Shown in pieces: positions 7,324-34,734 of a stretch of DNA of 64,000 nucleotides. Below the pieces are notes generated by a model. That model had not been told where the DNA came from and did not search any database. It saw nothing but the letters and a program-made list of their open reading frames with translations. The stretch comes from Mesostigma viride (lineage: Eukaryota > Streptophyta > Mesostigmatophyceae > Mesostigmatales > Mesostigmataceae). The translations under genes were made by a program, and so were the position numbers. How positions within the stretch are numbered: position 1 is the first letter of the stretch; the number at the start of each line of letters is the position of its first letter. Location: positions 3,789,042 through 3,853,041 of the forward strand of contig RPFO01000082.1 of NCBI GenBank assembly GCA_009746045.1. The letters run 5' to 3'.

Positions 7324-10099
7324 AATCGCGCCTGATTGTGCGGTCGTCAGCCAACGTGGAGGACCTGGCAGGGATGTCGGGCGCGGGTCTGTACGAGTCC
7401 ATCCCCAACGTGTCGGCGCATGAGCCGGAGGGCTTCTGTGAGGCCGTGGCCAAGGTGGGTGGGCAGGAGCTAGCCTCCTAACGTGGCTAAGGTGGATGGG
7501 CGCGAGCTTGCCTCCTAACGTGGCCAAGGTGGGTGGCCGCGAGCTTGCCTCCCAACGTGGCCAAGGTGGGTGGCCGCGAGCTTGCCTCCCAACGTGGCCA
7601 AGGCGGGTGACCGGCGAATTGCTTAAGGGCAGGCTGCTTTTGTCGTGAAGTAAGATTCCTTGAACCCTGCTGTCTTACTTTATTAAGTGTCATAGATATC
7701 CAGTGCACTGTATATAGTGTCCTAGATATCTAGTGTCCTTTCTATAGTGTCATAGATATCTGGTGTCCTTTATAGTGTCCAAGATATCTAGTGTCCTTTA
7801 TATAGTGTCATAGATATCTAGTGTCCTTAATATAGTGTCATAGATATCTGGTGTCCTGTATATAGTGTCATAGATATCTAGTGTCCTTTATATCGTGTCA
7901 TAGATATCTAGAGTCCTTTCTATAGTGTCCTAGATATCTAGTGTCCTTTATATAGTGTCATAGATGTCTAGTGTCCGTGTCTTGTAATTGTCGTGGCTGT
8001 TGGGGACGTTTCGGAGCGGCCATGGTACAGCGCGCAGACAGGTTGCATGAATGCATGTAATCTGACGTGTATGCTATGTTTTTAGGTGTTCTGTGTTTCA
8101 AGAGCATCGTAGTACTTGGTCTTGCGGTACAAATAATAGGATTACATACCGTCATCCACAGTACCTCGAATGGCACGCATTTGCACATCCAGATAGGATG
8201 TACTGGCATGAGATCTCCTTTTCTTGCCGTTGCCGTTCTAGTCATGATTCTAGACTCCTGACATCCCCCATCCTCTCTCAAGCTCTCAGGTGCCCCTGTC
8301 GGTTTGCTGCCCCTCGTAACGGCCCCTCGACCGTCATGGCCCATGTCCACCCGCCACCCTGGCCAGGTGTGGGCGTCCCTGTACACTCGGAGAGCCATCC
8401 TGAGCCGCCGTGTCGCCGGCGTGAAGCAGAGCTCGGCCGCGATGGCGGTCCTTGTGCAGGAGCTGCTGCGCCCGTCGCTTTCCTTCGTCCTCCACACGGT
8501 CAGGTGAGGCGAGCGACACGGCACGTCCACCTTTTCCCTTTTTTAAATGTATCCATGTATGCCAGGTGCTTAGTCTGGTGGAATTTATATGGCCAAATAT
8601 CACATGGTTGAACATTATGAATTATATGTCACATGTTATAAATATGCGAAATACTTATATCTTATATATACATGTCCATTATGGCAAATATGGAAATGTA
8701 TCCATGTATACCCGTTGTCTTATTTGGCTTCATGTATGTTTCCAGTTTCTTTCCTAGTTAGTTAGTAGCTTATCATTTTCAATGAATCGGTATGCTCCCC
8801 CCCAACCACACACAAAGCCCATCTACCTACCTACCACCGCATTGCCCTGCGACTTGCCCGCGCACCTATGGGCGGGTCAGTGAGTGTCGCATCAGTCGGT
8901 AGGATCTATCGATGTCGATTTGGTGGGCGGTTTCTTTGTTGTCGGAGGTTTCTTCAAGGTCTCTTTGGGCTGTCTTTTTGTGTGCATGCGTAGCACCGGT
9001 GGTAAAGGAGAGATCGGTCGGGAACGTGTATGTAAAAGAATGATTTGGTGACGTGGCGCAGTGGCGCTGTATACGGTTGCAGTAGGCATGTTACCTCATG
9101 TTGCCTCCTTGCGCCTCCTTATGTGACACTGTCTCTAAGGTGGCCATAGGCATTTTGTTGCCCCCACGGTAACTCCTTGCCCCAGATGGATGCGGTCTCA
9201 GATATTAAATCTGTCGTCACTCGGGCACCTGCTTCCGTTCGACCCCGAAGCCCCCACCGCACCACCTTGACGTGCTGCTCGTGTTGCTCCGGACTGGATG
9301 TCCTCACCGCGCCATCTCTTGCCATTTTGTCACAAGCATCTTGCCACCACCAACACCATGTTGACATTTTGGCCCTACAGGATACGTCTGTAGCACCATA
9401 GCGCCTTCTCGCTGGCACCATTTTTGCCACGCTGCATTACCTTGACATGCTGCCCCGACTGGAAGCCTCCACCTGGCCAACTTGTGACTTTGCCAACTCG
9501 TCACTTTGCCAACCGGCCACCTCGTCACCTCATCGCCACAGCCCGCTGGAGCGGGACCCAAATAAGCTCTACGCAGAGGTAGCGGTGGGCCTGGGAGAAA
9601 CGCTGGCATCCGGCACCCGCGGCACCCCGTGGCGGATGGTGGTGGATAAGGAGAGGTGCGTGCGTGGCGGATGGTGGTGGATAAGGAGAGGTGCGTGCGT
9701 GGCGGTGCGTGGATCACGAACTGGGTTTTGTTGTGGTCGTTGACGGATTCGTAGATGGCACCTGCTGTAAAGTTGTAGCCCCGCCCTGCCTTCGTAAGGC
9801 GCAGGCAGGAAGGCTTGCTCTTTGGTTCTTTGCTTCCGGGGCTGGTGTCTGGGGGTCGACACCACGTGAAGTTTGTGTCCAAGCTGGGAAGATGTGGTGC
9901 TTTGCGACCAAGGGCATGCCCATGGCTGCATCGTTTTCAATATTTATATTTTTTTTGGTGAGATGGCAGCCTGGTGGGCAACCACGCACACACGCCCCCC
10001 CCGTTTTTTGTCTCTTGTGAAACGCCTTTTCATTTGGAGGGAGGAAAAGGTGCTGGCGCAGCTTTCGTGATCTATAATTGCGTGGCACAGGATCCCCCG

Positions 10100-10134: not shown

Positions 10135-12285
10135 TTTGAGGGCCTCTGTGTGGTAGAGTGCCTTCCCTGTGAGTTCTGCTGTGTTCCGCTGTGTGGTAGA
10201 CTACCTGTTCCACCATCCTTCCACTTCACTCACGCATGAGCTTGTGTACGTGTGCGTGCGCCAACGGTGCAAATGGACCCTTGCCGCAGTGGGGACGTCA
10301 AGATGCTGTCGTTTGCCAACTTCAGCCAGGCCTACCGCGTCAAGATGGCGCCCAAGGGCGCCGTCAAGGTGCAGCTGGACACGGTGGACTACAGCAAGGA
10401 GGTGAGCATCAAGTACACATCATAGCGTGCATTCGCGACATGTATGTTTATGTTCCGTACACATGAAGGAGGTGAGTTTTTTTTTGTATGTCCGTAACGT
10501 TATCTAGTGTGCAGCTAGGAGGTGAGCTTTACATGGAGTTAGGTCGTATATTTAGTACTCAGCAAAGAGGTGAGCCATGGCTTTTCGACAAAGGGGGGGA
10601 GAGCCCAGGTTGGATGGCAGGTGCCTTGGCTGGGGCCATGGTGTCCGTTGCTTGGTTCCTGGTCAGAATTAATGTCGATGGGCTGAGCGGTGTCTGCGGC
10701 ATGCACAGGGTCGCACGGTGCGTCCTTTACCATTCAACTCCGAAATGTGTGTTGAGTGAGTTAGTGGACAGAATTCGCTGCAAAGTTTTTCGCGCGCATT
10801 CTTTGAGAAAAGGGGATGGGGGAGGACAAGAATAGGCAGGCTCGTGGGGCGGCGGGGGGGACTGGGTGTGCCTGGCTCAAAGGCAATGGAATAGCAGAGT
10901 CAAGAAGGGATCATGGTCACATTGGTTAACATTTAGTGGATCATTTTGTTTGTCCGGTCTTTGATTCCTCTTCTGCCTTCAAGCACAACCGCGCTGACCT
11001 TTTTCAGGTTTTGGTTAGTGTCTGTCACTATGTATATAACCCATGTCACTATATATATAACCCATGTCACTGCCAAGTCACTGGTTGCCCCGGAGCATCA
11101 AGAGGGCATTTGTTACGTTTCTTTCCTCGGGGAGTTGCCGGATTTGTTGCGAGAGACTGCCCCTGATGCCATGTAAGTATATGCTAAATTATGCCATGTA
11201 GGACAACCGTGTCTGCGTCCCATTTCCCTGGCTCACTTTCGCCCACCTTCTTGGCCCACTTCTTTGCATGGATGTCGATTTCACGTTGCCGCTTGTCGCC
11301 ACTTTGTGGCAGGCGCTGTCGTTGACCAAGTCCTACCAGAAGGACGTCGGCAAGCGGCTAGGTGCCATCGGCACGTATCTGGAGCAGGTAAATTCCGCAT
11401 GCCTACTGTATCAATCAAGTGCCAACCTTCTTCAGCTAGTCCACGGTTTTGCGATGCCAGTAAGTGGGTGAGTACTTGTGTGCAACATGCAGAGACTTGT
11501 TAGTACCAGTCTCATTTGTTAAATCATGTCAAACGCAGATAAGTAAGAGCAGGCTCGTACCATGGTCCGGATTCTCCAGATTTCTGGCCTGCGCTGGTTG
11601 TCTCATCGATATGTTGCGTTGATATGTCGCCATGCTCGCTCATGATGGTAGCACACGCCAGCAACATTCACCTTCTCGGCATGTGTAAGCAGGATACCTG
11701 TCTTACACAAAGTCCTGTTTTTATCTTCGCCACTTCAGGTTTCTGCTTGAAGGCCAGTTCTATTAATATGTCTTGCCTTGGTGGAGGTAAGTAGCGTCGG
11801 CATTGGAGCTAGGCCCAGGGCGCATGGTACTTCATACCTAAGCTATTTTGTTTGGCATCGCCACCCTTATGGTTATAGAAACGGAATATCTTATGCTAAT
11901 AACTGCAGCGTCTTGCGCTTAGAGGCAGTATTCTTTAGGTCTGTACAGGATCTCACATTTCAGTCAACTCGATGACAGTATGATTGTTGAATGCAAGGCC
12001 CGCCTTTGAGTTTTCTTGTGGGCCGCATTACCAGGGCCCTGTGGAGCCGATACGGTCGATCTGCCATGCCTGTATGTTGGTCCATGCCCATTGTTGTGCT
12101 GTGTGTACTGGTCAATTTACGTCAAGCCCTTGCGTGCATAGGTTTTTAGCTGTCTAGGTGCTGACTTAGGAACATGAGATCTTCGTTGTGGGACATGTGC
12201 GCAGGCCTTCGGAGCCCCGCAAGATATCGAGGGTGCTATTGTTGGCGAAGAAATCTACATCGTGCAAGCGCGCCCACAGCCGTGA
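7324..12285 (+). CDS. GWD: Alpha-glucan, water dikinase, C-terminal part (six exons; 5' part outside the window)
   Basis: GWD phosphorylates starch glucose units with ATP and water, which opens granules for degradation, normally in plastid or cytosol. Exons: 7324-7454, 8367-8503, 9542-9655, 10290-10401, 11313-11387, 12205-12285 (TGA). All introns are GT-AG and splice phases agree (0, 2, 2, 0, 0). The spliced 650 nt encode about 215 residues of the C-terminal ATP-binding (PPDK_N-like) domain. Family motifs in order: [99 protein letters not shown] at the C-terminus. The catalytic-histidine region and any carbohydrate-binding domains lie upstream of the window. The related PWD and PEP synthase are less likely given the [16 protein letters not shown] and [10 protein letters not shown] blocks. 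Two exon ends are tandemly duplicated into the next intron. Confidence 0.92.
7449..7612. repeat. 37-bp tandem array seeded on a GWD exon end and splice donor
   Basis: The exon ends GTGGCCAAG followed by donor GTGGGT at 7455. The same block recurs with a 37-bp period near 7486, 7523, 7560 and, degraded, 7597, each copy carrying a GCCAAG|GTGGGT-like donor. The first repeat unit therefore overlaps the coding exon. Confidence 0.9.
7686..7976. repeat. AT-rich tandem repeat, about 30 bp x 10, in a GWD intron
   Basis: Units contain the palindrome AGATATCT between AGTGTC and AGTGTCCTT, repeated about ten times at 29-30 bp spacing with scattered substitutions. No coding potential is seen. Confidence 0.93.
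8504..9541 (+). other. GWD intron without a recognisable element
   Basis: This stretch lies between the exon ending in VLHTV and the exon beginning with SPLERDPNK. It is AT-rich in its first half (8540-8760). I see no exon, RNA gene or repeat family in it. Confidence 0.6.
9629..9698. repeat. 35-bp duplication of a GWD exon end plus donor
   Basis: The last coding bases of the exon ending at 9655 and its donor GTGCGTGC lie in a 35-bp unit (9629-9663) repeated directly at 9664-9698. The second copy keeps a complete donor; its use would add 35 nt and shift the reading frame. Confidence 0.92.
10091..10134. repeat. Poly-C tract
   Basis: An almost uninterrupted run of about 40 C lies in the GWD intron just before the exon at 10290. 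Confidence 0.95.
11388..12204 (+). other. Last GWD intron, no element recognised
   Basis: This is an 817-bp GT-AG intron between the GAIGTYLEQ exon and the [10 protein letters not shown] exon. I see no repeat family or additional exon. Confidence 0.6.
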
Positions 12286-12656: not shown

Positions 12657-12734
12657 TTACAAATAGCGTCTGCATCATGCCCCAACCACTATTAAGTGAG
12701 ACAACTTTGCCTGGACGCACGGCGATCCAACTCC

Positions 12735-13540
12735 CCTGATTACCGTCATCCGCACGCTGTATGAGGGGTTGACCACTTCGGTGCGCACTCAACACGGCAT
12801 TACCCCGCCATGCCCACTGCAGACCGGCGTCTGGCAGGGTTGCGTCCTGTCGCCGTACCTGTTTATTATTGTAGTGGATGATGTTATGCGCCAGGCATGT
12901 GCTCGCTTTGCTAGCATTGCAGACCGTGCCCCTGGCCTAGCGATCACGAACGAGCTTGGGGAAGGGGGGCCGACTAACAAGCAGAATTTACTAGCTGACC
13001 TCATTTATGCCGACGACATCACGCTCATTGAGAAGCCGGAGTCTGCCCAACTTTGGCTGGACTGCCTGGCGCTCGAGGCTCGGGCGGTTGGTCTAGAAAT
13101 CAGCCCCAAAACGGAGGCCCTGGCCCTCGGCATGGCAGGGCCCCCACCCACACTCCGCCTCTTAGACGATGCCGAGGTCAACTACCCTCCTTCAGGCCGC
13201 TTCAAGCTGCTCGGCAGTTGGCTTCCCGACTGCGAGGACGACATGCGACACGGATCGGCATGGCGTGGGCGCACCTCCATGACCACCGCCGCTGGTGGAG
13301 CAACCCCGCCCTACCCCGGATCGTCAAGCGTGACCTCTTCAAGGTCGTCATTCTGACGATCCTGACCTACGGCGCAGAGACGTGGACACTGACGCAGGAG
13401 CTGGAGCAACGACTCGACGGCGCCGTCACCAAGATGCTGCGCAAGGCCCTTAACATCCCCTTTAATTTGCACATTAGTAATGAGGATTTGTACGCTGATT
13501 TGCCCTATGTTTCCCACATTATTAGGCCCAGGCGCCTGTG
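12735..13540 (+). mobile_element. LINE-A reverse transcriptase fragment, plus arm of an inverted pair
   Basis: This is a non-LTR retrotransposon RT fragment, broken by frameshifts. Motifs in order: QGCVLSPYLFIIVVDDVMRQ, LADLIYADDITLIEKPES with the catalytic YADD near 13005-13020, SPKTEALALGMAGPP, and in a second frame ILTYGAETWTLTQELEQRL and LRKALNIPF. It lacks the 5' part and the 3' UTR of the longer LINE-A copy at 36050-38440. It abuts a reverse-orientation copy at about 13540. Confidence 0.88.
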
Positions 13541-17468: not shown

Positions 17469-17568
17469 GCTCCCGGCGGGGCTCGAACCTGCGACCTCGT
17501 GATGACAGAGTTTCACGATGTGGTAGACCGTAACAGTCACGCGCTCTAGCCGACTGAGCTACGGGAGC
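17469..17568 (-). tRNA. tRNA-Asn (GUU) with 27-nt intron, copy 1
   Basis: On the minus strand the acceptor stem GCTCCCG pairs with CGGGAGC. The D arm GCTC/GAGC and an A box TAGCTCAGTCGG are present. The anticodon stem CGTGA/TCACG encloses a loop whose anticodon is GTT. A 27-nt intron sits after the base 3' of the anticodon, the canonical 37/38 position. The B box reads GGTTCGAGCCC. A TTTT Pol III terminator lies just downstream (AAAA at 17459-17462 on the plus strand). Confidence 0.93.
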
Positions 17569-18412: not shown

Positions 18413-21400
18413 ATGGCCTCTGATGTCGTCGGTACCGGCAGCAAGGGAGAGAAAGGCTGGGTTGAGCAGCAAAAGAAGGTAAAGCAGCGTGTATCATTGT
18501 GCTGTATTTGTGGCATTTGACAGCTCATTCGCGCGGTGGTATGCGTGGTAGTATCCTTGTTTTGCTTGTAGCTGCTACATATATTGGCCATGTTTGACAT
18601 GCAATTGTGATTTCCTTTGTCAACCTTGGCCCGTTCTTTCTACGACTATCCTGGCATAACAGACGTTCGTACGATGGATGAATAGCCGGCTGGGACCGAC
18701 AAACCATGCAATGCATGTCAAGGATATTTGCAATGATCTGGGCGATGGACTCCGCATCTTCGCGCTCTTGGAAAGGTAATTGCCTATTCGTCGTGAATAG
18801 AGGCTGTTTGTGCCAGGTTGCCTATTGCATTCCGTTCCTGGTCATCTTACCTAATTATCAATGCGAATTTCCTGCCCTTCGTTGTCGAGCAATCCCAGCT
18901 CAGCCCACCAGCCTAAATTTGTGACCTTGAATGAAAAGGAAACTGTTGCCTTATCAACTGCACATCGGGACGGTATTGCATTACCTTGATATGCGTGCAC
19001 ACGCACTTGCATGCCTCCAGGGTGTCAGGGCAGGACATCGGCAAACCCCCCAACAAGGTCGCCAACTCGCGTTTCCAGAAGCTCGAGAACGGTGAGCCGT
19101 GACGGCACGCCCGCTGGTGTCCCACGATGACATCATGCGAGAGAGATGGGCCACGATGACATCTTGCGAGAGATGGTCCATGACGTCATACCATATATGG
19201 GCCACCATGTCATGCGAGATATGTGGGTGGTTGGGGTGGGGGGAGGACAGCAGTTTCATGAAGCTCCATGAGTCAAAGCAGACAACGGGTCGCCATTGCC
19301 GAGCCTAGCAGGTGTCCACGTCACTTCTGGCACACAGCCCTCACCATGACCCAATCTTGCCACATTCAGCCGTCGCCATGACCCACTCTTGGCCACACTC
19401 AGCCCTCACCATGACCCACTCTCGGCCCCACTCAGCCCTCACCATGACCCAATCTTGGCCAATACATGGCCCCAACGGTGTCATGCCATTCATGATCCCC
19501 ACTGGTCCTAGTATTCGACACGTACGACCTTGCCCTTGAAAGAGGCATGCACGGTTTTGGCTGCAGAGTCTCCGCAGTGCTGCATTCTACCACACATTTC
19601 GACTTGTGCATTCTACCACGTTTCGACTCGTGACCTGAGTATGTTGCAGCTCATTGGTACTCTTGTCCCTGCACCATCCGGCACGAGGGGCTCTGTAATA
19701 CCACAGGTACGGTGTGCTAGGTACGGTGTGGCGCTAAGGACTGTCTTCCATGCGCGCTAGGGAGCTCCCACTATGCAGTGTTCATCGTGCATCCGGCGGA
19801 AGAAGAAGACGACCTGTTTCCACGTTCGCCGGCTCACCAGGCTTGCACCATCGACCGAGCAATGCTGTGTCTACTATGGTGCGCTTACTCAGTGTCCGCG
19901 GAGCTGCAGGTGCTGGACAAGAAGCTCGCTTCCTCTCACCTATGCTTCCTGTTGTACCATGTGCTGTGTGACACTATGTCTACTATGGTGCCCTCATACA
20001 GTGTCCACAGTGCTGCAGGCGCTGGAGAAGAAGCTGGGCGTGAAGATGGTCAACATCGGCGCAGACGACATCGTGGATAGCCAGCTCAAGCTCATCCTGG
20101 GGCTGATTTGGACCATCATCAACAAGTTCCAGGTGGGTGCTACATACAGGGACGTCATCGACAAATGCCAGATGGGTGCTGTGAATAGGACCATCATCAT
20201 CGTTGAACAAAGGGTAGGGACACCTGGAATCGGGTGACCATTGCAAATAGGGCGACCATTGAGGGTCTTCCTGGGACTCGTTTTCCTCGTCGATGCAATA
20301 TTTTCACCACAGACATCCTTGTTTCTCTTTTCACTTGGTTGTTGGTGAGGTACGGAGCGTTCATATACCTAAATAAATGAGACAATATACTATTATCTAT
20401 ACATCAATCAGACAAGCAGCGCAGGCCAGAAATTTGGAGAATCCGGACCATGTATGTGTATGGATATGTGTTCATCTGCGCCCACAAGCGTTAAATCTAA
20501 CCGGTAAAATAGCTTGGCTACTGAGCTTGGTATCTGTAGAAGTCTGACCACCCCCACACCCCAACTCAACCCAACCCAACCCAACCCAACCCAACCCAAC
20601 CCAACCCAACCCAACCCAACCCAACCCAACCCAACCCAACCCAACCCAACCCAACCCAACCCAACCCAACCCAACCCAACCCAACCCAACCCAACCCAAC
20701 CTAACCCAACCCAACCCAACCCAACCCAACCCAACCCCACACGAATGGACTGCCACTCGGCCAATGGATTCACGCATCTCTGGTTTGGCCACCTGCCCTT
20801 GCACCGCTCGCCAGCTGTCCGCCATCAACACGGGCGAGCAAAGCGGCAAGAGCGGGCTACTGCTGTGGGCGCAGCGCGCGACCGCTGGGTACAAGGATGT
20901 CAAGGTCACCAACTTCACCACGTCCCTGCAGGTACGTTCAGAGCCCTATATCTTCCCATACATACCTTCCTGTATGGTTCAGAGCCCTATATCTTCCTAC
21001 TACTATGTATTTTTCCCTGTGCTGCTACACTTGCCACTTGCCAATTTCCCCATAGCCCTGAGTCCAGGCTATTCTTGAATGGGATCCCTCCAGCACAACG
21101 CACATGGTGTGGCCATCACGTCTAAACTATAATGGGACCCTTCAGCACAACCTATACTACAGTAGTGTAGTATGATGTGGCCATCAACTTTATCCGGAGG
21201 ATGCAAAATTGTATGTTATCTAAGATGGCTATTTTAAGAAAATGCGTGATTTCCTACGATGGGTGCCACGATCGTCCGGCAAGAATAGTATCATGGCATT
21301 GTTTCGTCATTGGTACGCGCTGTTGTCTACTGACCAACTCCCCGTACAAACCAATTCAAGCAGGTTACTTGGAACGTTCGTGTTTTCTTAGGACGCGACA

Positions 21401-23628: not shown

Positions 23629-23697
<69 letters not shown>

Positions 23698-26600
23698 TGA
23701 CACACAGCATTCACGCATATCGACCAACCAATTGTGACTGCCGCATCTCCCCTGCCTTGACCTCTTGGAGCTGAGCAGCCTTGTCAATGTATCGGTCCGT
23801 CTGTCTGCTCACGCATAAACGCATAACTACACACACACACACGCACTGACACACACCATGGCTGCCCATCCCTATCCCTTGACCTCTCCCAGCTGAGCGG
23901 CCTTGTGGGTCGGTGGCCTCACATGCACAGTCGCACACCCACACCGTGGCTGCCCCTACGTCCTTTCTCTTGACCGTGTACAGCTGAGCAGCCTAGTGGA
24001 TGTAGAGAACGCGATGGAGTCGTACAACGCGTACCTCGGCCAGGAGCGCGTGAGCGCTCGCAAGGAGGGGGAGGAGGTGGGTCAAAGTACCATTTTAGAA
24101 CAAGGATGGGAAGGAGGGGGGCTATTTACTATTGAGGATAAGGAGGGGGAGGAGGGGGATTGATGTATTGGTTGATTGAGGGGAGGGGGGGAAAGGTGGT
24201 CAACTCACCTTCTTGAAAAGTAGGACAATACCGGCTTTATTTTCATTGGTACTGTAAACTCCTTTTCGCTCAAAAACAGAGGTGAGGTCTTGAACCAGAG
24301 CACGCGGGGAGGGGGGGGGGGGGGGCAGGGGGGAGGGTCGGCCGTTGTGGGTTTACCTTTGCTGTTTGTGTTGATGTTGAGATATGGTAAGATGTGGTGC
24401 ATTAGTATGTTCTTTGGAGGGGGAAAGGGCGGTGTGCGGCGGGGGGTGGGGTGGGGGTGGGAAGGAGCATATGTGCAGCAGGAGAGGCAGGAGAAAGCAG
24501 TCAGCACCAACCAAGTACTTTCTTTCCAACAGCTGCTAAAAGTTGTAGTATGGTTAATTAAGTTACCTGCTCTTTCAGTCAGCCATGAGGCTCTGGGCGG
24601 CAGCCCTACTGCTTCTCATGCTTTCCTATTTATTGCTTCCGCTGCGTGTGCTGAAGACGTCATCTCTGCCCTACTGCTTTTGATGCTGTCTAATTAATTG
24701 CTTCCACTGCGTGTGCCGAAGACTTCATCTCTGCCCTACTGCTTTCTATGCTGTCCTATTAATTGCTTCTGTCGTGTGGATGCATGCGGCATGTGCGTGC
24801 GCGTGCCAACAGGCCCAGAAGCTGGTGCAGTCCCTGGCCGTGCGCCTGCAGGCCGAGAACGCGCCACCATTCACGTTGCCAAAGGGCTTGAGCATTGCAG
24901 ATCTCGAAGAGGGGTGAGTGACGCCTTGAATTCACAAGAGGGGTGAGTGACTTATAGCCCTTATAGACTTGGAAGAGGGGTGAGTGACGCCGTGAATTTA
25001 GGAGGGGGGTGAGTGACATATAGCCCTTATAGACTTGGAAGAGGGGTGAGTGACGCCGTGAATTTAGGAGGGGGGTGAGTGACATATTGGCTCATATAGA
25101 CTTGGAAGAGGGGTGAGTGACACCGTGAATTTAGGAGGGGGGTGAGTGACATATTGGCTCATATAGACTTGGAAGAGGGGTGAGTGACACCGTGAATTTA
25201 GGAGAGGGGCGGGTGACGTTTGGTACTTGGGAGAGGTGTGAGTGACGCGTTGGGACAGGAGAGGAGTGTTGGATCATCGTGCTTACTGCGACGTTGATGC
25301 TCAAGCGACCGCGATGTTGATGCTCAAGCGACCGCGACGTTGATGCTCAAGATCTGGGGGAGGAGAGGAGTGTGTGGTAAGAGACTCGCACCCCCTGCAG
25401 CCGTGGTGACTGGCAGCCATATCCATCACCTGGGCAATGGATATGCACAACTGCCATTGTACAGTTGATATGCACAACCGTTTAGGAGCATACGTTCCTG
25501 CAAGGACCCTTTTCCACCCCCTTGACTGCCATTTATGCAGCACCCTTGGTGCAAGCCAGAATGCACACATGCAGGCGTGGGCAAAACCAAGGGAGCGGCG
25601 CCGCAACATGAGCTTGTCTTGGTCTCGGAGATTGTCTTGGAGAACAATGCCCAGTTGCCTTCGATTAAGTGCGGCCTCAAGGCCGGGGTAGCCAACCCAA
25701 CAACCAAACGTGCATGCATGGATGGGACTTCCACTTCTGCCAAAACACGTATACCTTATGTAACGTGCGTCTCGTGTATATCATGAATAGACAAATCACG
25801 TATACCTTATTTAACGTGCGTCGAGTGTATATCATGAATAGACAAAACACGTATACCTTATTTAACGTGCGTCGAGTGTATATCATGAATAGACACAACA
25901 CGTATACCTTATTTAACGTGCGTCGAGTGTATATCATGAATAGACAAAACACGTATACCTTATTTAACGTGCGTCGAGTGTATATCATGAATAGACACAA
26001 CATGTATACCTTATTTAACGTGCGTCGAGTGTATATCATGAATAGACAAAACACGTATACCTTATTTAACGTGCGTCGAGTGTATATCATGAATAGACAA
26101 AACACGTATACCTCATTTAACGTGCGTCGAGTGTATATCATGAATAGACAAAACACGTATACCTTATTCAATGTGCGTCGTGTCTATATCATGAATAAGG
26201 TGCATTGCATACTAGCTGCAACATCATTCCAACAATGCCAGGTGGAATGTCAGTGATGCTAGCACGCATCACTCATGCGTGTGCTGCTTTGCCTCCCACT
26301 TTTGCTTCCCGCCAGGTGGCGTGTCCCAGATGCTAGCTCATGTCACTCATACGGGGGCTGCTTTGCCTCCCCCTTTGCTTCCCGCCAGGTGGAAGGCGCT
26401 GGTGGAGACGGAGCAGCGCTACGTGCAGTCGCTGCGCGTGCAGAAGCAGCGTTGGGCGCGGCTCGAGGCGCTGCTGTGGGAGGTGGAGCAGCGGACGATG
26501 CACGCGGGCAACTGGGCCACCCTGGCAGGGGGCTTCCTGGACCAGCCGGCCAAGATCCCTACCGACACGCCGCTCTCGTGAGTCGCGAGCGGCCATTTTC

Positions 26601-29600
26601 TGGAATGCTCTTTGTCCGTGCTGGTGGTGTCATGCTGGCTACTCACCCTGATTGGGTCACGCTGGCTGCTTTTGCTGGCTGTGGGTGCTGGATGTCCATG
26701 ATTTTTTAGTCATGCTGTTCCATGGTGCTGGATGTCCGTGATTTTTGGGTCATGCTGGCAATTCTTGGTTCTTGTCCATCCTGGTTCAACATGCTGGTTG
26801 CACTTGCCAACGCGGTCAAGAATCGGGAGGGTGAGTGGGTTCGCCAGCAGTAATGCCACGCATGCCCTGCCCTGCGCAAAGCAATTCCATGCCACTCGTC
26901 AAGCCCTTGTTTTATACAGCCCCAAATTCTAATGCAAACTTCCCGAATACGCGCCATTTTAGACTGTAAATCCCTTTCTTGTTCCCATATTTTCTGCAGG
27001 CGTCAATTAATGAAAAGCACGTGACTGTGTCACATGCGTACCAATGAACTCCTGCGTGAGTACGTGCCGTTGTCTCAAGTCCCATTCTATCCCATTCTAT
27101 CTCCCCGCACCCTCCACTGCCATTCCTGCACTCACCTTCGACCCCCCACTACCACCACCACACCCAACCTCACCTCAACTCCCACCACTGCCACCCCCCA
27201 AACTACCGGCCAACCCCCCCCCCAATCTACCGTTCCCTCGGCAGGTACTGTGTGCAAGCCACAGACCGCTTCGAGGAGTCCCTGGGCCTGCAGACCGAAT
27301 ACCTCAAGCCGGCGGCTGGGCTGATGAAGCAGGTGGTTGCGGCCGGGCACTCGCGCGCGGCCGCCGTGGAGGCCCAGCTGCAGGGTGTGCTGGGCCGCAT
27401 GCAGGGGCTGGAGTCGGCGCTGGGGCAGCGCAAGGCGGCGCTGAAGGCGGCGTTGGAACGGAGACCGAGGCAAGAGGAGCTCAGCCTTCAATATGCGCAG
27501 GTTGGTGCTTGCGATGCGCACAGGTCGGGGTGGCGTACATGATGCGCAGGTTGGTGTAGTGGCTTGTGATGCATGCAGGTGCGCTGGCTTCCAGGGCATC
27601 GCGTTGCCCGCTACATGAGCAGGCATCCGGGGAGGGCATGGATGCATATTGTTTTCCTAACTAGCTTTGCAAAGGCGTCAATAATCAAGCCATCACGAAG
27701 CAGCGTTTTCCGTTTCAAACTTCCAAATTATTTTACATGAATACAAAAAGCTGCTTGCGGTGCCACTTTGCCTGGTGCCTTCATACTATCATATAAAACA
27801 AAGCTTGAGCAGAAGATGGACTTATTCTGAGTCACCCTATCTATCATGCCCTGCTGGAGCCTGAAGCTCGCTCACCTCCTAATCCCCATGTATACCTGCA
27901 CATTCTACCATCGGTTTATCGGCGCATTGGGATGTCGGTCCAATCGGATGTCGGCCCAATGGGATGCCGCCAGCTGGCGGATGCGGCAGTGAACGCGATG
28001 AACGTGCTGGAGCTGGAGGTGCGGCGGCCGCTAGGCACCGACGAGGCCGAGGCGCTGCCTGGGTCCGTGCAGGAGGCAGGGGAACAGGGGCGGCGGCTCA
28101 AGGAGTCGCTGGAGCTGATGAACGAGTTGAGGGCGCTGCTGGTGGACGTGGACGGCAAGGTGGCGGAGTACGGCGCGCTGCACAAAGAGTGAGTGCAAAA
28201 AGAATGTGTGGGGGTGGACTAGCTGCGTGGTGGTGGTGGTGGTGATGCATGGGGGGGCGGGAGGGGAGGGGGATTAAATGGCAAGGTGGCGGAGTGCGTC
28301 ACGCTGCACAAAGAATGATGGGGGGGTGGGGAGGAATCGGGGAAGGCGGGAGGGGGAGAGAGTAAGGTGATTCAGGGGGGTATTAGGGTGTGTCATTGGG
28401 AAGTAAGGGCACATTGGGGAGGGTGAGAGGCGGGGTAGGGGACAATTGGGCAGGTAGGTTGAAGGGGTAGTTATGGGCTTGGTGATTTAGCAGGGTAAGG
28501 GAGCTCCTGCCTCTCCTCGTTTGAACATGGCACGGTGCCCAATTCTCTGCCACGCCCATCGTGTAAGAGGAGTCGCTTTTCGCCAGCAGTCGCATATGAC
28601 TACGCAACGATTGACGGACTGTCCACCGGGTGGCCCAACCCTTCCCAGCTGTTTCTCCCTCCCAGCTTTTGATCGACATCGGACTGGCCCCCTTTGTTTG
28701 GTTGATGCGTGCTAGATGGTTTGTTCAAATGTGCTCCTCAAACAGAAATTATTCGTGCGCGCGGTTCGCCGCACTGGCTGCCGCTCGTGTCCACCCTGGC
28801 AGTATGCGCTACGTCTATCCACTTGTCCACGCACCCTGGCAATATTCTGCATGCCTGACACCGTGCACGCCCCCTCGCGTGGGTGGGGTGTACCCTTTTC
28901 GTCAAACATGGCCTTGATGGCCCTTGACCCGTTTCTCCTCCGCCGCGGCCAGTCCATCTCTCCCATCTGTCCGCCTCACCCCTCCGTCCATCTCTCCCCT
29001 CTGTCCGCCTCTCACCATGGCCCGCTTCCCCCCGTGACGGTCTCTCCCTTTGCTTGTCCGCCGCTCCCCTTTTCCCATCTCTCCCCCTCTGTCTGTCTCT
29101 CCCCACTGCCACCGGGCCTATGTCCCCCGTACCAGGCTTCAAGGCTACGGCGGCGTCGACCTGCCGTACGGGCTGCCCCGCGAGGACTTGCTGCGCGAGC
29201 GGCTGACCGGCATGAACCGGTCGCTGGACGAGCGGGTGGCCACGCAGCAGGCCAAGGTGAGGGGCCATAATAGGGGTGGCACGAGTAGGGCAGGAACGGA
29301 GCAGGTGGCCGCGCAGCATACGGCCAAGGTGGGTGGCCACGCGCCGATGTGGGTGGCTTTAAGTATATCGTGCGGGGGAGAAAAGGGGGCGATGCCGGTA
29401 TGGCGAGGCAAATCAGGTGGTGATGTGGCGAAACCATCTGAAATCGCGGAAGTTTGAAGTCCAAACTAAGTGGTTGCATAGTGGAATAATTGGCCCACAA
29501 CTAGACTTGTCAATAATACAAGTTTTCTGACAAGTTCCTGTTACACAACTCTCATAGTTGCCCCCGCCTGTTCAGATCCAGTCACACAATCAAGATAATT

Positions 29601-32600
29601 GGTGAGCTGTGCTCCTTTTATCTATGACTAACCTCCACAGCTGAGAGCATGGAAGTTTATGCTGGCACCATACACCAGCCTGCCAGAAATGGAAGGCCAG
29701 ATACTTGGATTTTTCCACGGTGCCTGCATTCAATCATTGTTTGCCCTCCCCCCAACCCACCATTCTCATGACCGGTTATGCTTACATGCATGTTTTCTGT
29801 CCCTCCTGCCAGCTGGCGGATCTGGAGCGCATCGGACTAGGTCATAAACACGGTGTTCTTTGGTCCTTGGATCCCCACCCACGGGCGCCTTGCTGGCCAT
29901 GAAACCCTTTGTGAAACACCTCCCCTCCCCCCTTGTGCCAGCTGGCGGATCTGGAGCGCATCCGCGCACTGGTGGCGGCGTACCGTGGCAAGGCGGAGGC
30001 GATGGTGACCTTCTGCACCGAGCACAGCGCCAAGGTGCTGGCATGCATCCAGCGCTATGGCCAGCAGCAGGCCAAGGGGTGCGACGAGGGCGCGGTGGAG
30101 AAGGGGCTGGAGGAGGTGGCGCAGCTGAAGCAGAGCATCCAGGTCGGTCGCTGCCCCCAGCACGCACCTAGCCTACCAGGAGAGATTGCGGTTGTTTGGT
30201 TTTGGTGGTATGAACCCTAAACAGCGGAAGCAGGGCGTCCAGGCGAGCTATACCCCGTCACAACCGATGGTCCGTTATCGCAATGTAGCAAGTATGGAAA
30301 TTGAAACGACAATCATCCATTATTTTCCTGATTCTGCATGCATGCATAAGACATCAGCTTTACCACATGGTGTGTGTGCCAGCTCCAAGTGGTGGAAGAT
30401 TACTGACCCACACTAGTCAACGTGGCACAACTCATTGGCCCATGGGATAGGGCGAGCACAATAAAGCACAGGCAATTAGAAAGGCATGCAGAATGCCGTT
30501 GTTGGGAAGCCCACCTTTGTTTACTCGCCCAGGTCGACACTGCCCACATGCAGCATGGCCCGGTACCATTCCTATGGCGTCGCAAGGCACCCCTCGTATC
30601 GGTTGGCTTACGATAATGTTTTCCTGATTGGTGCATTTTGCCTGAGGCCATCTTATGCTTGCGCTTGCCTTTTGTTTGCTTGCGATGCGCTTGCTGTTAT
30701 CTGTGGGCGCCTGTGCGTATCTTTTGTGGGTGCCTTTGGGCTCATTTTCTGGCGCCTCGCACTTGCCTCCCATCCTTTTTCTCGGCGGTCCAGAGCCAAG
30801 GGCGTGAGCTGCTCAACAACGTCAAGGAGCGTATGGAGGAGCTGCGCAAGCTCAGCAGCGACGAGGGGGTGGAGGTCAGCCTGCTGCCTGAGGCGCTGGA
30901 CATCCGGTAGGGTTGATGAGCTAACAAGTCAATAATCATTTAGTTGGTTTGTTACAGGAGCTCTAAGGGCAAAGTATTGGGAGATCATGTGTGTCGAGGG
31001 GGCGGGTGGGGAGAGGGCGAGGGGATGCTGGAAGCATTCCCATTGGTCACTGGATATATGTTTGCATGTCTGTCTGTCTGGACGTGAGAAGGTGCATGGG
31101 GTTGGAGAGGAAAGGAACAAGGAGCATGTGGGGCAGCAAGCACCGAGCCGATGTATGTGGTGCTTGTCTTGAAAACGCGTGAGTGCTTGTCTTGGAAACG
31201 CTGGAATTCTTGTCCTGGAAGCACAGGAGTGCTTGCCGTGTTAATGCTACTCGCAAACACATCCTTCACTTTGACGCAGTGGCGTGCTTTAACGTATTGC
31301 CTTTGCGAGGTACAGATGCCAGTTTTAAAAATCCTAGCATCCCTGCTGCTGCCGCGACAGATGGCTGGCGCCAAGATCAAGAAGTGCACTTGGAAGCATG
31401 AGCATGGGACGTTCAACACCATAATCCATTTCTGGCCCTCTCCTGGCCCTCTGCTGGCATAATTGATTTATACCTCTCCCTCCCACACCCCTTGCCCGAG
31501 TGCTATACCCCTGCTCCCCTGCCTACCCCCGTTCTCCGCTGGAACCTTGACCATTACACCCCCCACACACGTTTCCTCCCACACCCCTTGCCCGAGTGTT
31601 ATACTCCTGCTCCCCCGCCTACCCCCGTTCTCCGCTCGAACCTTGACCATTATTTGCTCTTTTACCCCGTCAACCCCTCTGGACCTGTTGACCTCCAATA
31701 CCACACGGCATTCTCGTTTTTAACCACCTTCTCCGCCCCCACCCCCCACCCTTGCACCCATTTTTTCCTCTGCTTCTCCCCTCTTCTCCCCTTTCTCCCT
31801 TCTTCCCCCCTCTTCCCCCCTCTTCCCCCCTCTTCCCCCCTCTTCCCCCTCTTCCCCCTCTTCCCCCTCTTTTTCCCTGCGCCTGCTCCCTCGCTCCCCT
31901 TGTGTGTTCCCATGGTTGATAGCCACCTTCAGCCACCCTGACCTCCCATAAACCCCATCTCCTTCCTCCCCCCCCCCCTCACCACCACCATCCCCCCCCC
32001 CTCTCTCTTATGTCTGCCCAGGTTTGGTAGCATGCTGACGTCGCTCTCGGACGCGAAGAAGCTCCTGGAGCAGCGCCTGCTACAGAAGGCCAGCGACGCG
32101 CTGTCCCCCGAGCTCATGTCAGACATCAAGGCTGTCTTCCTCGAGTTTGACAAGGACAAGGGTGCGTAAGGGCAGATGGGCAGATGGGTGAGTTAGGTTA
32201 AATAGTGCCGGAACCTTTTGCCCACTGAGGCAAATCGGTCCGTCACACTATTTTGCCCGGAATAACTAGGTTCCGGCACTATTTAACCTAACTGGGTGGA
32301 CAAGGGCAAGGGTGCATAAGGGCAGATGGGCGGATGGGTGGACAAGGGCAAGGGTGAGTCGGGGCATGAGGGCGGATGGGTGGACAAGGGCAAGGGTGAG
32401 TCGGGGCATGAGGGCGGATGGGTGGACAAGGGCAAGGGTGCGTAAGGGCATGAGGGCGGATGGGTGGACAAGGGCAAGGGTGAGTCGGGGCATGAGGGCG
32501 GATGGGTGGACAAGGGCAAGGGTGAGTCGGGGCATGAGGGTGGATGGGTGGACAAGGGCAAGGGTGAGTCGGGGCATGAGGGCGGATGGGTGCACAAGGG

Positions 32601-34734
32601 CAAGGATGAGTCGGGGCATGAGGGCGGATGGGTGGACAAGGACAAGGATGAGTCGGGGCATGAGGGCGGATGGGTGGACAAGGGCAAGCGTGAGTCGGGG
32701 CATGAGGGCGGATGGGTGGACAAGGGTAAGGATGAGTCGGGGCATGAGGGCGGATGGGTGGACAAGGGCAAGGGTGAGTCGGGGCATGAGGGCGGATGGG
32801 TGGACAAGGGCAAGGATGAGTCGGGGCATGAGGGTGGATGGGTGGACAAGGGCAAGGGTGAGTCGGGGCATGAGGGCGGATGGGTGGACAAGGGCAAGGG
32901 TGAGTCGGGGCATGAGGGCGGATGGGTGGACAAGGGCAAGGGTGCGTCGGGGCATGAGGGCGGATGGGTGGGCAAGGGCAAGGATGAGTCGGGGCATGAG
33001 GGCGGATGGGTGGACAAGGGTAAGGATGAGTCGGGGCATGAGGGCGGATGGGTGGACAAGGGCAAGGATGAGTCGGGGCATGAGGGCGGATGGGTGGACA
33101 AGGGCAAGGGTGCGTAAGGGCATGAGGGCGGATGGGTGGACAAGGGCAAGGATGAGTCGGGGCATGAGGGCTGATGGGTGGACAAAGGGCAAGGGTGAGG
33201 GGTGGGGAGTAGGGCATGATGTCTTCCTTATGTGTTTATAGGGACACAGGTGAGGGCATGGGAGTAGGGGCATAAAGACAGATGGGCCGTCTCCTTTATG
33301 TCCGATAAAGACGAAGGGGAGGTCATAATTGGCTCATGAATATGGGCAGGTATGGGACGTTTCCGCATCGTATTCATATCTCGCTCTTGGCCGTTCCTTT
33401 GGCCTCTCCTTGTCCTTATTTCCTTCCTTTCTTTTCTTCCTTGGCCTTATTTCCTTGGTCTTTTCTCCTTGGTCTCCCCTTGGCGTCTTCTACCTAATTA
33501 AGGGGCCGTACTTAATACCGGAGCTCCTACCCCGTCCTGGCTAGACCCTTGCTCCCTGTGGCTTTGTGCACCTTGTCAGTTTATTCATGGGCCTGAGTCT
33601 TTTACCACCGCGACCAAGTAAGTAAGTAAGTAAGTACTTGCGTGTCATGCGCAAAGGCATGCCACGGAGTACTATGCTAATCTCATTAGAAAAAATAATT
33701 ACACAACCGCAACCAAATCGTTCCCCTGCTACCTCCGCCACCAACCCATTCCCCTGCCGCCACCGCCACCAACCCATTCCCCTATTACCGCCACCAATCC
33801 ATCCCCCTGTTACCGTCACCAACCCATTCCCCTTCGATCGCCACCACCAAACCTGTTCCACCAGATGGCTACCTCTCCAAGGACGAGCTGGCGGAGTGCC
33901 TGCAGGCACTGGGCCAGAGCGTTGACGCCAGCTCGTTGGACGCGCTCGTGGCGGGTGGCAGCGGCAAGGGCAACAAGTTGGACCAGGCAGCGCTGGTTGA
34001 CTTCATGCGGCGACGCGTGCGGGAGACGGAGAGCAAGGAGGACGTCAAGCTGGCGTTTGAGTCGCTTAGCAAGGTAAAAGAGGGGAGGGGGGGTCTTAAG
34101 TCATAACTTGCCACTACTATTTGTTTTATAAAATGCTACTAGATCTATAAATTGCTACTATGCGGGACCACCCCTAAAACTGTTTGGAATCTACTCTTGC
34201 AGCGTGGGCCCCAGCCCTCGCGAAGCCTGGTGTGTGCGCATGATATGCACATGCACATTAATTAAGTACTAAGCAATTAATGTGCCCATGATATTCATCG
34301 GTGCCCATCAGTCAGGTGGGAGCCGGGGAATCTCTTCACAAGGTGGGGCGCGCAGATTTAGATCGTGAGTCAACCGTACCCTTGAAAAGCAAACAAGTCC
34401 TCAGTAAGGTAGGGTTTGTACCTTGCCAGAGCAGTAGGAGCAGATAGTTGGTCATCATAAATAGATACACGTTCTTGTTGTTAATGTGCTAGTCATGCCA
34501 CACAGTTGCGCGGCATGGGTCATGGAGCACGGATCCTCATGCGCAGGCCACGCTGTTGTCTGTCTATTTGTGTGTGCATGTGTGCAGGGTGCGGCATTCG
34601 TGACGGAAGAGCAGCTGCGCGCGTGTGGGCTCGCGCCCGCCGTCATCGCGTTCCTTCGGGACCACATGCCCGTCACGAGTGGGGGCGCTGGCTACGATTT
34701 CCAGGCGCTCCTTCGAAATGTGTTTGAAGACTGA
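18413..34734 (+). CDS. ACTN: Alpha-actinin, 883 residues, 18 exons
   Basis: Actin filament cross-linker. Exons: 18413-18478, 18663-18775, 19021-19091, 20011-20132, 20815-20931, 21503-21802, 22674-22751, 23984-24076, 24813-24913, 26389-26577, 27245-27500, 27974-28188, 29136-29256, 29942-30142, 30794-30906, 32022-32161, 33865-34073, 34588-34734 (TGA). All junctions are GT-AG, phases agree throughout, and the spliced length is 2,652 nt, close to the usual alpha-actinin length. CH1 is about residues 23-124 (TFVRWMNSRLG, LGLIWTIINKFQ). CH2 is about 125-245 (GLLLWAQRATAGYKDV, DGLALCAILHKHRPDAIDF, DAEDVVEEADEKSMLTQV). The neck and a helical spectrin-type rod are about 246-735. EF-hand 1 has a canonical loop, DKDKDGYLSKDE, at 762-773. 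EF-hand 2 lacks the acidic ligands (GGSGKGNKLDQ). A C-terminal EF-like module ends LLRNVFED. The ATG is chosen because it precedes the CH1 splice in frame. Many exon edges are duplicated into introns. Repeat number in the divergent rod is uncertain. Confidence 0.94.
19334..19468. repeat. 33-bp tandem repeat in alpha-actinin intron 3
   Basis: About four units built on CCCTCACCATGACCCA repeat at roughly 33-bp spacing, with small differences. Noncoding. Confidence 0.85.
19865..19932 (+). repeat. Decoy copy of the alpha-actinin exon 4 acceptor and start
   Basis: The block TGTCTACTATGGTG through CTGCAGG(T/C)GCTGGA(C/G)AAGAAGCT occurs here and again across the true exon 4 acceptor at 20010/20011. 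The decoy keeps an AG and encodes VLDKKLA where the exon has ALEKKLG, then diverges. Confidence 0.88.
20561..20738. repeat. Pentanucleotide (CCAAC)n microsatellite, about 35 units
   Basis: An almost perfect CCAAC/GTTGG repeat lies in alpha-actinin intron 4, ending 76 bases before the exon 5 acceptor. The G-rich strand could form G-quadruplexes. Confidence 0.96.
21853..21892 (+). repeat. Decoy copy of the alpha-actinin exon 6 end and donor
   Basis: The exon 6 end, AAGATGGTGGAGCGCGTGCGG through GAGGCACAGAAG|GTATGG (about 21764-21808), recurs about 90 bp downstream with three changes and a GTGTGT donor-like sequence. Confidence 0.9.
21922..22143. repeat. 9-bp (ATTGATTGT)n tandem repeat, about 25 units
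   Basis: Nearly perfect ATTGATTGT repeats lie in alpha-actinin intron 6. The period divisible by three gives long open frames on both strands that encode only tripeptide repeats. Confidence 0.96.
22236..22376. repeat. G-rich (GGGGGA)n low-complexity tract
   Basis: Long G runs are separated by single A or AA. It is noncoding and likely to form G-quadruplexes. Confidence 0.93.
22577..22611 (+). repeat. Decoy copy of the alpha-actinin exon 7 acceptor and start
   Basis: GCAGGCTGCGTGCGTCCATC followed by AGTGCACCAC is a near copy of the true acceptor and exon 7 start at 22671-22703 (GCAGGCTTCGTGCGTCCAGC then AGTGCACCGT), about 94 bp upstream. Confidence 0.88.
23038..23141. repeat. Essentially perfect 52-bp tandem duplication
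   Basis: Two adjacent copies start TAGACATTCGTCGCTAGATA and continue through ATGGTAAGGGTTTGTT in alpha-actinin intron 7. It looks like a recent single duplication. Confidence 0.95.
23447..23697. repeat. (CCCT)n - (CT)n - (CG)n compound microsatellite
   Basis: About 190 bp of CCCT repeats pass into about 45 bp of CT and then CG repeats. The strong strand asymmetry could form triplex or Z-DNA. Confidence 0.97.
23748..23915 (+). repeat. Two decoy copies of the alpha-actinin exon 8 acceptor and start
   Basis: CTTGACCTC...AGCTGAGCAGCCTTGT at about 23757-23788 and again, with one substitution, at about 23877-23908 match the true boundary CTTGACCGTGTACAG|CTGAGCAGCCTAGTGG at 23970-24000. The spacing is about 100-120 bp. 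Confidence 0.88.
24594..24775. repeat. About 63-bp tandem repeat, three copies
   Basis: Units share GCCCTACTGCTT, ATTGCTTCC and CGTGTGC(T/C)GAAGAC in alpha-actinin intron 8. Noncoding. Confidence 0.85.
24905..25250 (+). repeat. Tandem array seeded on the alpha-actinin exon 9 donor
   Basis: Exon 9 ends GAAGAGG|GTGAGTGAC with the donor at 24914. GAAGAGGGGTGAGTGAC or GAGGGGGGTGAGTGAC then recurs about nine times, organised in roughly 67-bp units that each contain two donor-like sites, fading into (A/G)GAGGGGCGGGTGACG. Confidence 0.92.
25274..25346. repeat. 24-bp tandem repeat, three copies
   Basis: Three adjacent units contain GTTGATGCTCAAG(C)GACCGCGA(C/T). Noncoding, in alpha-actinin intron 9. 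Confidence 0.9.
25737..26200. repeat. 51-bp minisatellite, nine copies
   Basis: Units contain ACACGTATACCTTATTTAAC, GTGCGTCGAGTGTATATC and ATGAATAGAC. The period is a multiple of three, which keeps frames open on both strands, but only the repeat itself is encoded. It lies in alpha-actinin intron 9. Confidence 0.96.
26233..26388 (+). repeat. Three-fold acceptor repeat before alpha-actinin exon 10
   Basis: GCCAG|GTGG acceptors occur at 26241, 26315 and the true site 26388, about 74 bp apart. Each is embedded in a repeat with GATGCTAGC, CACTCAT and TTTGCCTCCC. Confidence 0.9.
27541..27562 (+). repeat. Decoy copy of the alpha-actinin exon 11 end and donor
   Basis: The exon 11 end ATGCGCAG|GTTGGTG (donor at 27501) recurs at 27541 as GATGCGCAGGTTGGTG. 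A partial third copy, GATGCGCACAGGTCGG, lies between them. Confidence 0.82.
28195..28500. repeat. G-rich low-complexity intron sequence
   Basis: Repeated GGGGG, GGTGG and GGGAGGGG tracts fill this part of intron 12 around the decoy exon end. No coding signal. Confidence 0.7.
28278..28319 (+). repeat. Decoy copy of the alpha-actinin exon 12 end
   Basis: GGCAAGGTGGCGGAGT followed by CACGCTGCACAAAGAATGA copies the exon 12 end GGCAAGGTGGCGGAGT..GCGCTGCACAAAGA|GTGAGT (28158-28194). The decoy donor has decayed (AATGATG). Confidence 0.88.
29300..29342 (+). repeat. Decoy copy of the alpha-actinin exon 13 end and donor
   Basis: GAGCAGGTGGCCGCGCAGCA followed by ACGGCCAAGGTGGGTGG resembles the exon 13 end GAGCGGGTGGCCACGCAGCA followed by GGCCAAG|GTGAGG at 29230-29262. 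Confidence 0.87.
29598..29697 (+). mobile_element. Relic sharing both ends with the 56-61 kb YR retrotransposon
   Basis: It starts TTGGTGAGCTGTGCTC and continues TTTTATCTATGACTAACCT, matching the A repeat at 56159 and 61051. It then has TGCTGGCACC(A)TACACCAGCC, also A-like, and closes CCAGAAATGG as the B repeat does. I infer an internally deleted derivative of the same family in alpha-actinin intron 13. Confidence 0.75.
29809..29838 (+). repeat. Decoy copy of the alpha-actinin exon 14 acceptor and start
   Basis: CCAGCTGGCGGATCTGGAGC followed by GCATC is identical to the true acceptor and first exon 14 codons at 29938-29962, 129 bp downstream. The decoy then diverges (GGACTAGG). Confidence 0.93.
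30143..30793 (+). other. Alpha-actinin intron 14
   Basis: 651-bp intron. A weak echo of the exon 14 end (GAAGCAGGGCGTCCAGG) lies at about 30227-30243. Nothing else is recognised. Confidence 0.55.
31481..31656. repeat. 96-bp tandem duplication in alpha-actinin intron 15
   Basis: TCCCACACCCCTTGCCCGAG through CCGTTCTCCGCT(G/C)GAACC and TTGACCATTA occurs twice, 96 bp apart. The rest of the intron up to 32021 is C/T-rich (repeated CTTCCCCCCT). Confidence 0.9.
32149..33200 (+). repeat. 42-bp minisatellite seeded on the EF-hand exon end and donor, about 22 units
   Basis: Exon 16 ends with the first EF-loop codons, GACAAGGACAAGG|GTGCGT. The 42 bp starting with these codons form the first unit. After a 103-bp MITE the unit repeats about 21 times as GACAAGGGCAAGG|GTGAGT followed by CGGGGCATGAGGGCGGATGG. 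Each unit thus mimics the codons plus a donor. The 42-bp period keeps frames open on both strands, but the exon frame meets TAA in the first unit, so the array is not translated by read-through. Confidence 0.95.
32191..32293. mobile_element. 103-bp MITE with perfect 25-bp TIRs and 5-bp TSD
   Basis: Terminal inverted repeats span 32191-32215 (AGTTAGGTTAAATAGTGCCG...) and 32269-32293 and are perfectly complementary. The flanks are GGGTG at 32186-32190 and 32294-32298, a likely 5-bp target duplication. It sits between the first and second units of the 42-bp array. Confidence 0.88.
33617..33710 (+). repeat. Dispersed short repeat, copy 2 of 2
   Basis: Shares about 80 bp (AAGTACTTGCGTGTCATGCG to ATAATTACAC) with 12574-12656. 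Preceded by a short (AAGT)n tract. It lies in alpha-actinin intron 16. Confidence 0.8.

Follow-up and report, generated by a model that had tools for sequence, protein, structure and literature searches.

Introners form families of similar introns scattered over many genes. The boundary repeats of Mesostigma viride, a single-celled green streptophyte alga, resemble them in that repeated sequence is tied to splice sites but, unlike introners, the M. viride copies stay local. The introner paper PMC9860276 has no occurrence of Mesostigma, streptophyt or tandem. When positions 28000-29300 of the stretch studied here (a donor with its copy) were searched against the 440-Mb assembly, skipping simple repeats, they matched only themselves; genome-wide matching covered two places, this interval and one chaperonin locus (L026).

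Intron gain by tandem genomic duplication (TGD) is reportedly the subject of Hellsten 2011 and of Gao and Lynch 2009, both referenced in a review, and Zhuo 2007 is said to be related work. According to the available part of that review (PMC3443670), the TGD model has an AGGT-bearing segment duplicated to give a new intron. The M. viride repeats share with this model the tandem duplication of gene segments carrying splice-site sequence. However, in TGD a copied exon segment becomes a new intron by means of two AGGT sites, whereas in M. viride existing introns lengthen and AG|GT is not needed. In human segmental duplications, internal tandem repeats across exon-intron boundaries alter splice-site choice, and the accessible portion of that report (PMC2812944) counts 27 modified introns among 2,008 recent-paralog loci and interprets them as novel-intron formation. 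Tandem duplication at exon-intron boundaries is already described, and duplications lying across such boundaries are common to the human and the algal case. The M. viride case is not intron gain; unlike the human one, it involves genes of the ordinary kind, touches ~45% of their scorable donors and leaves the outer donor in use in the published models of two genes. For Drosophila, the part of PMC2891723 at hand describes introns formed by tandem duplication, together with intron sliding, at a handful of novel intron positions; exonic duplication with proto-splice sites recalls the present repeats, but in M. viride the exon edges are unchanged.

For M. viride itself, a genome paper (PMC6947507) reports that intron space is 30.1% repetitive and that the mean intron measures 1141.9 bp. 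Its intronic minisatellites come from the same species and belong to the same class of local repeats, and the available part of the paper has no mention of splice-site repeats or of a donor focus. The word "intron" is absent from the main text of a second genome paper (PMC7027972). No report of a donor-focused duplication process was found in the open-access literature, a scope outside which most subscription papers fall.

Host genes and boundary copies in the window

The window, i.e., the whole stretch of 64,000 nucleotides that was analysed, corresponds to C557:3789042-3853041 of the 439.9-Mb M. viride assembly. Two host genes are considered:

7324..12286, + strand: final six exons of a CBM20-type phosphoglucan water dikinase gene (PWD/GWD3; Mesvir1 28247, Mv04788-RA.1)
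18414..34734, + strand: alpha-actinin gene, 18 exons (EukProt/JGI Mesvir1 28249, Mv04789-RA.1)

Both gene models have GT-AG introns and a single open frame each, and the earlier PWD exons lie upstream of the window. The alpha-actinin protein is 99% identical to Mesvir1 28249 and equals Mv04789-RA.1 apart from the initiator Met and three residues at the acceptor of exon 20011, where the published model takes an AG 9 nt farther upstream (20002-20011) and thereby gains the three residues. This acceptor is itself a duplicated one. In the assembled PWD protein, 1135 of 1137 residues equal the C-terminal 1135 residues of Mv04788-RA.1 (1247 aa); small predicted exons 3 and 7 had been removed from the predicted gene before counting, and the published model later agreed. 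The two gene structures are independently supported, because the published models match them. The preliminary description had called the first gene GWD: it does encode a dikinase, more exactly the CBM20-bearing PWD/GWD3, and many of the relatives listed bear the name phosphoglucan water dikinase. The assignment of alpha-actinin stands as given.

Several other features were recorded in the window. A 30-bp satellite at 1-7256 (242 units in the window by TRF) extends over ~10.9 kb in total, continuing upstream (L002 from ~6367); it fills most of an 11,659-bp PWD intron and leaves open frames of >1,200 codons. Three tandem 101-bp tRNA genes on the minus strand (17468-17903) were found by Rfam and missed by ARAGORN; by eye, each has an intron and the putative anticodon GTT (Asn). 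Putative non-LTR reverse transcriptase fragments, partly mutually inverted by eye, lie at 12700-14160 and 36345-37463, with no Pfam match for the 101-aa piece at 37158-37463. The long frames at 56322-60658 read by eye as a putative reverse transcriptase followed by a tyrosine recombinase (DIRS-like), and two pieces searched gave no Pfam match at 1e-3. A perfect (ATTAA)68 microsatellite (55819-56158) stands directly before these frames, and a shorter one occupies 61479-61532 (TRF).

Each exon edge was compared with the adjoining 600 nt using dinucleotide-shuffled controls, and arrays were delimited by TRF. Tandem pairs were found by diagonal scanning and local alignment; BLAST self-comparison lost most of them. 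The boundary copies of the window are as follows:

7445..7613, + strand: array of 37-bp units running from the last 10 nt of PWD exon 7324-7454 into the intron (donor 7454; TRF, alignment, p=1.9e-9)
9628..9705, + strand: PWD donor 9655, spanned by a 35-bp unit x2.2 with identical copies (TRF, p=3e-8)
10388..10575, + strand: PWD donor 10401 with weak, degenerate copies at 10512-10527 and 10557-10575 (p=0.002, alignment)
19567..20035, + strand: alpha-actinin acceptor 20011 with upstream copies at 19877-19926 and 19767-19808 and a weak one at 19567-19584 (p=1.7e-10, alignments)
20110..20199, + strand: alpha-actinin donor 20132, crossed by a 39-bp unit x2.3 (TRF, p=0.0019)
20936..20997, + strand: adjoining copy at donor 20931, mainly intronic, the exon part matching 7/12 bases (p=8.5e-7)
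21762..21915, + strand: donor 21802, whose final 41 exon bases are copied 89 bp downstream (copy 21852-21915; 36/40 exon bases matched in the alignment; shuffle test)
22580..22697, + strand: acceptor 22674 with an upstream copy at 22580-22607 (p=9.3e-9)
23756..24004, + strand: acceptor 23984 with upstream copies at 23871-23908 and 23756-23791 (p=1.5e-6, alignment)
24062..24167, + strand: donor 24076 with weak, G-rich copies at 24102-24133 and 24140-24167 (p=9e-4, alignment)
24899..25253, + strand: donor 24913, with an array in which 67/133-bp units repeat GAGGG|GTGAGTGAC (TRF, shuffle test, alignment)
26237..26394, + strand: acceptor 26389, 74-bp unit x2.2 ending 4-6 nt into the exon (TRF, p=1.1e-10)
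27484..27580, + strand: donor 27500 with a copy at 27533-27580 (p=3e-4, alignment)
28154..28318, + strand: donor 28188, with a copy of 35 exon bases lying 126 bp downstream (28280-28318; 32/35 matched in the alignment), decoy GT changed to AT (p=2.6e-6)
29230..29339, + strand: donor 29256 with a copy at 29299-29339, whose donor scores slightly better (p=9e-7)
29801..29962, + strand: acceptor 29942 with a copy at 29801-29833, exon bases identical at 21/21 (p=1e-9, alignment)
30122..30256, + strand: donor 30142 with a weak copy at 30222-30256 (p=7e-4)
32149..33199, + strand: donor 32161, whose exon tail and splice site seeded a 42-bp array of 21.6 copies (TRF, p=6e-9, decoy core counts)

Extra boundary copies had been claimed at 16 junctions (11 donors, 5 acceptors), and each of them proved significant in the adjoining 600 nt, with p<=0.002 at all donors (range, 1.9e-9 to 0.002) and p<=1.5e-6 at all acceptors. 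Acceptor 26389, with four exonic bases only in its copy, falls just short of the spanning criterion of the shuffle test. Donors 20132 and 20931 were absent from the earlier list. Altogether, significant copies occur at 13/22 donors and 5/23 acceptors of the window. By the same comparison, 9 of the 22 donors have no significant copy, and 18 of the 23 acceptors stay below that level, with a weak copy at 32022 (p=0.006) and a weaker one at 33865 (p=0.033) among them; the pattern is therefore common, not universal. Units of ~35-130 bp, as previously given, are correct for the window, where the biggest array has 21.6 copies of 42 bp (32293-33199, TRF).

Frequency of boundary copies at donors and acceptors

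The question put was whether boundary copies are more than intronic MINISATELLITES. At a score of >=16, copies were found at 11/22 window donors versus 11.8% of complex interior positions (23.0% with low-complexity positions kept), and window acceptors (5/23) exceeded the complex interior (10.7%) without exceeding the interior as a whole (22.9%). Because the window is the discovery set, we took a repeat-independent sample, consisting of chaperonin (PF00118) exons from 11 loci picked by protein family and not by repeats. Exon edges rest here on protein-family matches and splice signals. Joining by GT-AG and phase was restricted to neighbouring matches that met, and it yielded 44 introns, two of them (cct2, cct7) with low splice scores; one neighbouring pair gave no splice. 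The PF00118 places omitted were a single-frame match (C2011), a near copy (C1641) and single-match places (C1106, C1457, C1557). At the same score, copies occurred at 15/44 chaperonin donors versus 5.7% of complex interior positions (14.7% of all interior) and at 7/44 acceptors versus 7.7% (15.7%). The chaperonin locus L026 has a second copy at G000:C1641:60707-68625, with pieces 96% and 93% identical and ~3.1 kb between them; the matching pieces differ little in net length, so there is no sign of a copy-number difference in them.

The pool comprised 83 introns (22 from the window, 17 upstream PWD, subsequently borne out by the published model, and 44 chaperonin), the 11.66-kb satellite-filled PWD intron being left out of every pooled set. 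G-skew in these introns is 0.41 over the first 20 nt and C-skew is -0.32 over the last 50 nt, decaying over ~250 bp. Scoring took 75/83 donors and 77/83 acceptors, the rest being dropped for a low-complexity probe, an N or an intron of <100 nt. At the p<0.003 criterion, a boundary copy within the same intron was detected for 34/75 donors versus 311/2459 interior positions (12.6%), a 3.6-fold excess, and for 17/77 acceptors versus 309/2407 (12.8%). Interior positions of one intron are not independent, so we resampled per intron: 35/71 donors were duplicated versus 7.3 ± 2.2 expected (0/20,000 resamples), as were 15/74 acceptors versus 7.9 ± 2.2 expected (P=0.0026). A few more junctions, lacking interior positions, were dropped in resampling and in the age-matching described below, and the donor counts vary slightly (31/75, 34/75, 35/71) with the random shuffled controls and slightly different criteria. 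At least one boundary is duplicated in 39 of the 69 introns scored at both ends (25 at the donor only, 10 at the acceptor only and 4 at both). Dynein AAA_6, which has few introns, contributed one locus with three introns and no duplication at its two scorable donors and two scorable acceptors. The overall scope is thus one species and one assembly, with 13 genes plus the 3 dynein introns.

Old duplications are recognisable for longer at exon edges, because coding constraint holds the exon reference near-constant. Identity is 84-86% in the exonic part of the copies and 74-79% in the intronic part, the difference that a nearly unchanging exonic copy would produce. The simulated gain in visibility was 1.38-fold with the exon conserved and 1.53 with the donor hexamer also frozen, with an upper bound of 1.98 when the original was fully frozen. 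For age-matching, exon-part divergence t at junctions was set against divergence 2t at interior positions. At t<=0.10, pooled donors retained a roughly threefold excess (12/71 versus 3.9 expected, P=0.0003), also seen in donors outside the window (7/52 versus 2.7, P=0.012) and in chaperonin donors alone (5/38 versus 1.6, P=0.014). The excess was biggest in the discovery window (5/19 versus 1.3, P=0.002) and not significant in upstream PWD donors alone (2/14 versus 1.1). Pooled acceptors showed no excess (4/72 versus 4.8 expected). The counts were 7/71 donors versus 2.2 and 3/72 acceptors versus 3.2 at t<=0.05, and 18/71 versus 5.5 and 8/72 versus 6.2 at t<=0.15; window acceptors alone exceeded expectation at the latter threshold (4/21 versus 1.3, P=0.023). 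Polypyrimidine tracts may lower acceptor detection.

By these counts, the donor excess is real in the sample, and the pooled copies at acceptors have an ordinary look. Splice-site centring is a donor effect, and ordinary intronic duplication would leave copies like those at acceptors. The preliminary description had expected ordinary minisatellites to centre on splice sites less often than the copies do. This part of its claim holds for donors, both before and after age-matching, and fails for age-matched acceptors. It had also named its own refutation, namely, repeats overlapping splice sites genome-wide no more often than random intronic positions; in the sample available, donors speak against that outcome and acceptors for it. 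What is trivial (the preserved old repeats at acceptors) is thereby separated from what is not (the donors).

The copies were further characterised in a detail set of 34/36 donor and 15/15 acceptor copies with at least four exonic bases aligned, from which donor 9655 is missing, apparently for a low-complexity probe. Along the donor axis, the copied fraction peaks at the donor (31/75) and is 2/70 at 40 nt inside the exon; in the intron it is ~15-27% up to +160 and 3-10% from +180 to +300. Median exonic overhangs are 21 nt at donors and 25 nt at acceptors, and the best copy lies at a distance of 39-436 from donors and 74-229 from acceptors in this larger sample. Inverted copies were significant at just one donor and one acceptor, and donor probes had 0/81 matches in a randomly picked other intron of the same gene. 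Near-full tandem units, with an aligned length of at least 0.8 of the period, make up 19/49 copies (14/34 donors, 5/15 acceptors). The copies are thus mostly local tandem duplications of the minisatellite kind, i.e., head to tail, in the same orientation and at the same locus. They depart from minisatellites, which have no preference for functional sites, in that donors are hit about three times as often as the age-matched interior, while acceptors remain at background.

Decoy splice sites in lengthened introns

That the process lengthens introns and lays down decoy sites, as had been proposed, was borne out by the sample. Introns with a duplicated donor are longer than the others (median, 822 versus 666 bp; p=0.03), and the GT is intact in 28/34 donor copies. 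Scored with a matrix trained on these same introns, 17/34 decoy donors and 8/15 decoy acceptors equal or exceed the real site. Published models nevertheless keep the outer donor, at 17/17 alpha-actinin donors and also through the PWD exons compared. Splice-site choice thus becomes a testable puzzle, with half of the decoy donors matching the real score and the models using the outer site.

A simple gene finder called three decoy copies small exons (L003:1973-2002, near 21852-21915 and near 29299-29339), two of these calls being seen only in the printed predicted protein. Duplicated donors may therefore have corrupted some automatic annotations, and annotators should be aware that a gene finder can mistake decoy boundary copies for exons.

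Explanations for the donor excess

The best explanation is that duplication happens across all M. viride introns sampled, with 5′ splice sites as its focus. It is probable that boundary-straddling segments duplicate head to tail and that donors, at about three times the age-matched intron, are a true focus, acceptors being none. A segment across an exon-intron boundary, mostly of ~40-130 bp, would be duplicated head to tail; the new copy would become intronic because the original outer exon edge and splice site remain in use, and the intron would gain one unit of length and one decoy site. Some copies would amplify further into arrays. Coding constraint would then hold the exon copy while the intron copy drifts. 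The direction of copying is established, because the exon copy encodes the published protein. The events themselves are presumably tandem duplications of a replication or repair type.

Several other readings were weighed against this one. Intronic minisatellites might arise at a uniform rate, those touching exons merely staying recognisable for longer. Such a bias accounts for the age-matched acceptors and agrees with the better preservation of exonic parts and with upstream PWD introns that are repeat-rich throughout (interior, 24-25%). As the sole cause, it is nonetheless unlikely: none of the simulated gains reaches the observed 3.6-fold, the threefold donor excess is left after age-matching, and donor exon overhangs fall short of the length predicted from uniform breakpoints (median, 21 versus 33 nt; KS p=9e-4). 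Selection could instead retain extra donors, e.g., as spare U1 sites protecting long introns or as backup splice sites, in keeping with the high scores of half the decoy donors and with a GT kept in 24/29 copies versus 18.8 expected (one-sided P=0.028). This retention is slight and is inflated, because alignments had to span the site to count, and the GT has become AT in 6/20 units of the 42-bp array at donor 32161. Periods divisible by three are not preferred either (12, 10, 12), which also removes reading-frame bias as a cause. We regard selection as quite improbable.

The preliminary description had linked the copies to AGGT-driven intron gain, and the copies could be relics of intron origin, tandem duplication with AGGT being a described route (PMC3443670 and PMC2891723, as far as their available parts go). 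That link did not survive. An intron start resembling the head of the next exon and an intron end resembling the tail of the previous exon occur in only 2 and 2 of 83 introns, whereas same-side copies number 22 and 14. Nor does AG|GT favour duplication: 22/56 such donors are duplicated versus 12/27 of other donors (p=0.81). Intron birth is accordingly the least credible of the readings, a very remote one. It is rather doubtful, too, that a G-rich donor motif or a G-skewed intron start, independently of any splice-site function, promotes duplication through slippage or in connection with R-loops. Intron starts are indeed G-skewed, the share of duplicated donors is greater at high skew (0.56-0.60 above a skew of 0.3, versus 0.25-0.40 in the bins below), and introns lacking a donor duplication show a mild elevation near the donor (0.150 at +30 to +90 versus 0.082 at +300 to +600). 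However, interior positions at like G-skew reach only 7-10% and are not enriched, and donors exceed the interior in each skew bin that contains donors. Donor-like hexamers elsewhere, sense or antisense, gave no clear per-intron excess, in small numbers. Donor strength had no effect on duplication.

Returning to a focus at the donor itself, the excess would reflect the sites at which duplications originate, perhaps through transcription or splicing of intron starts, and not selective retention. We tentatively suggest, as a possibility well short of even chances, that the 5′ splice site provokes local DNA duplication through its transcription or recognition, e.g., when an R-loop forms or a U1-bound nascent transcript stalls at the intron start. 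The boundary copies make intron lengthening concrete and countable, in a streptophyte lineage that diverged early. If the suggested role of the 5′ splice site is true, splicing signals would make introns grow and decoy donors spread, amounting to a splice-site-directed mutational engine.
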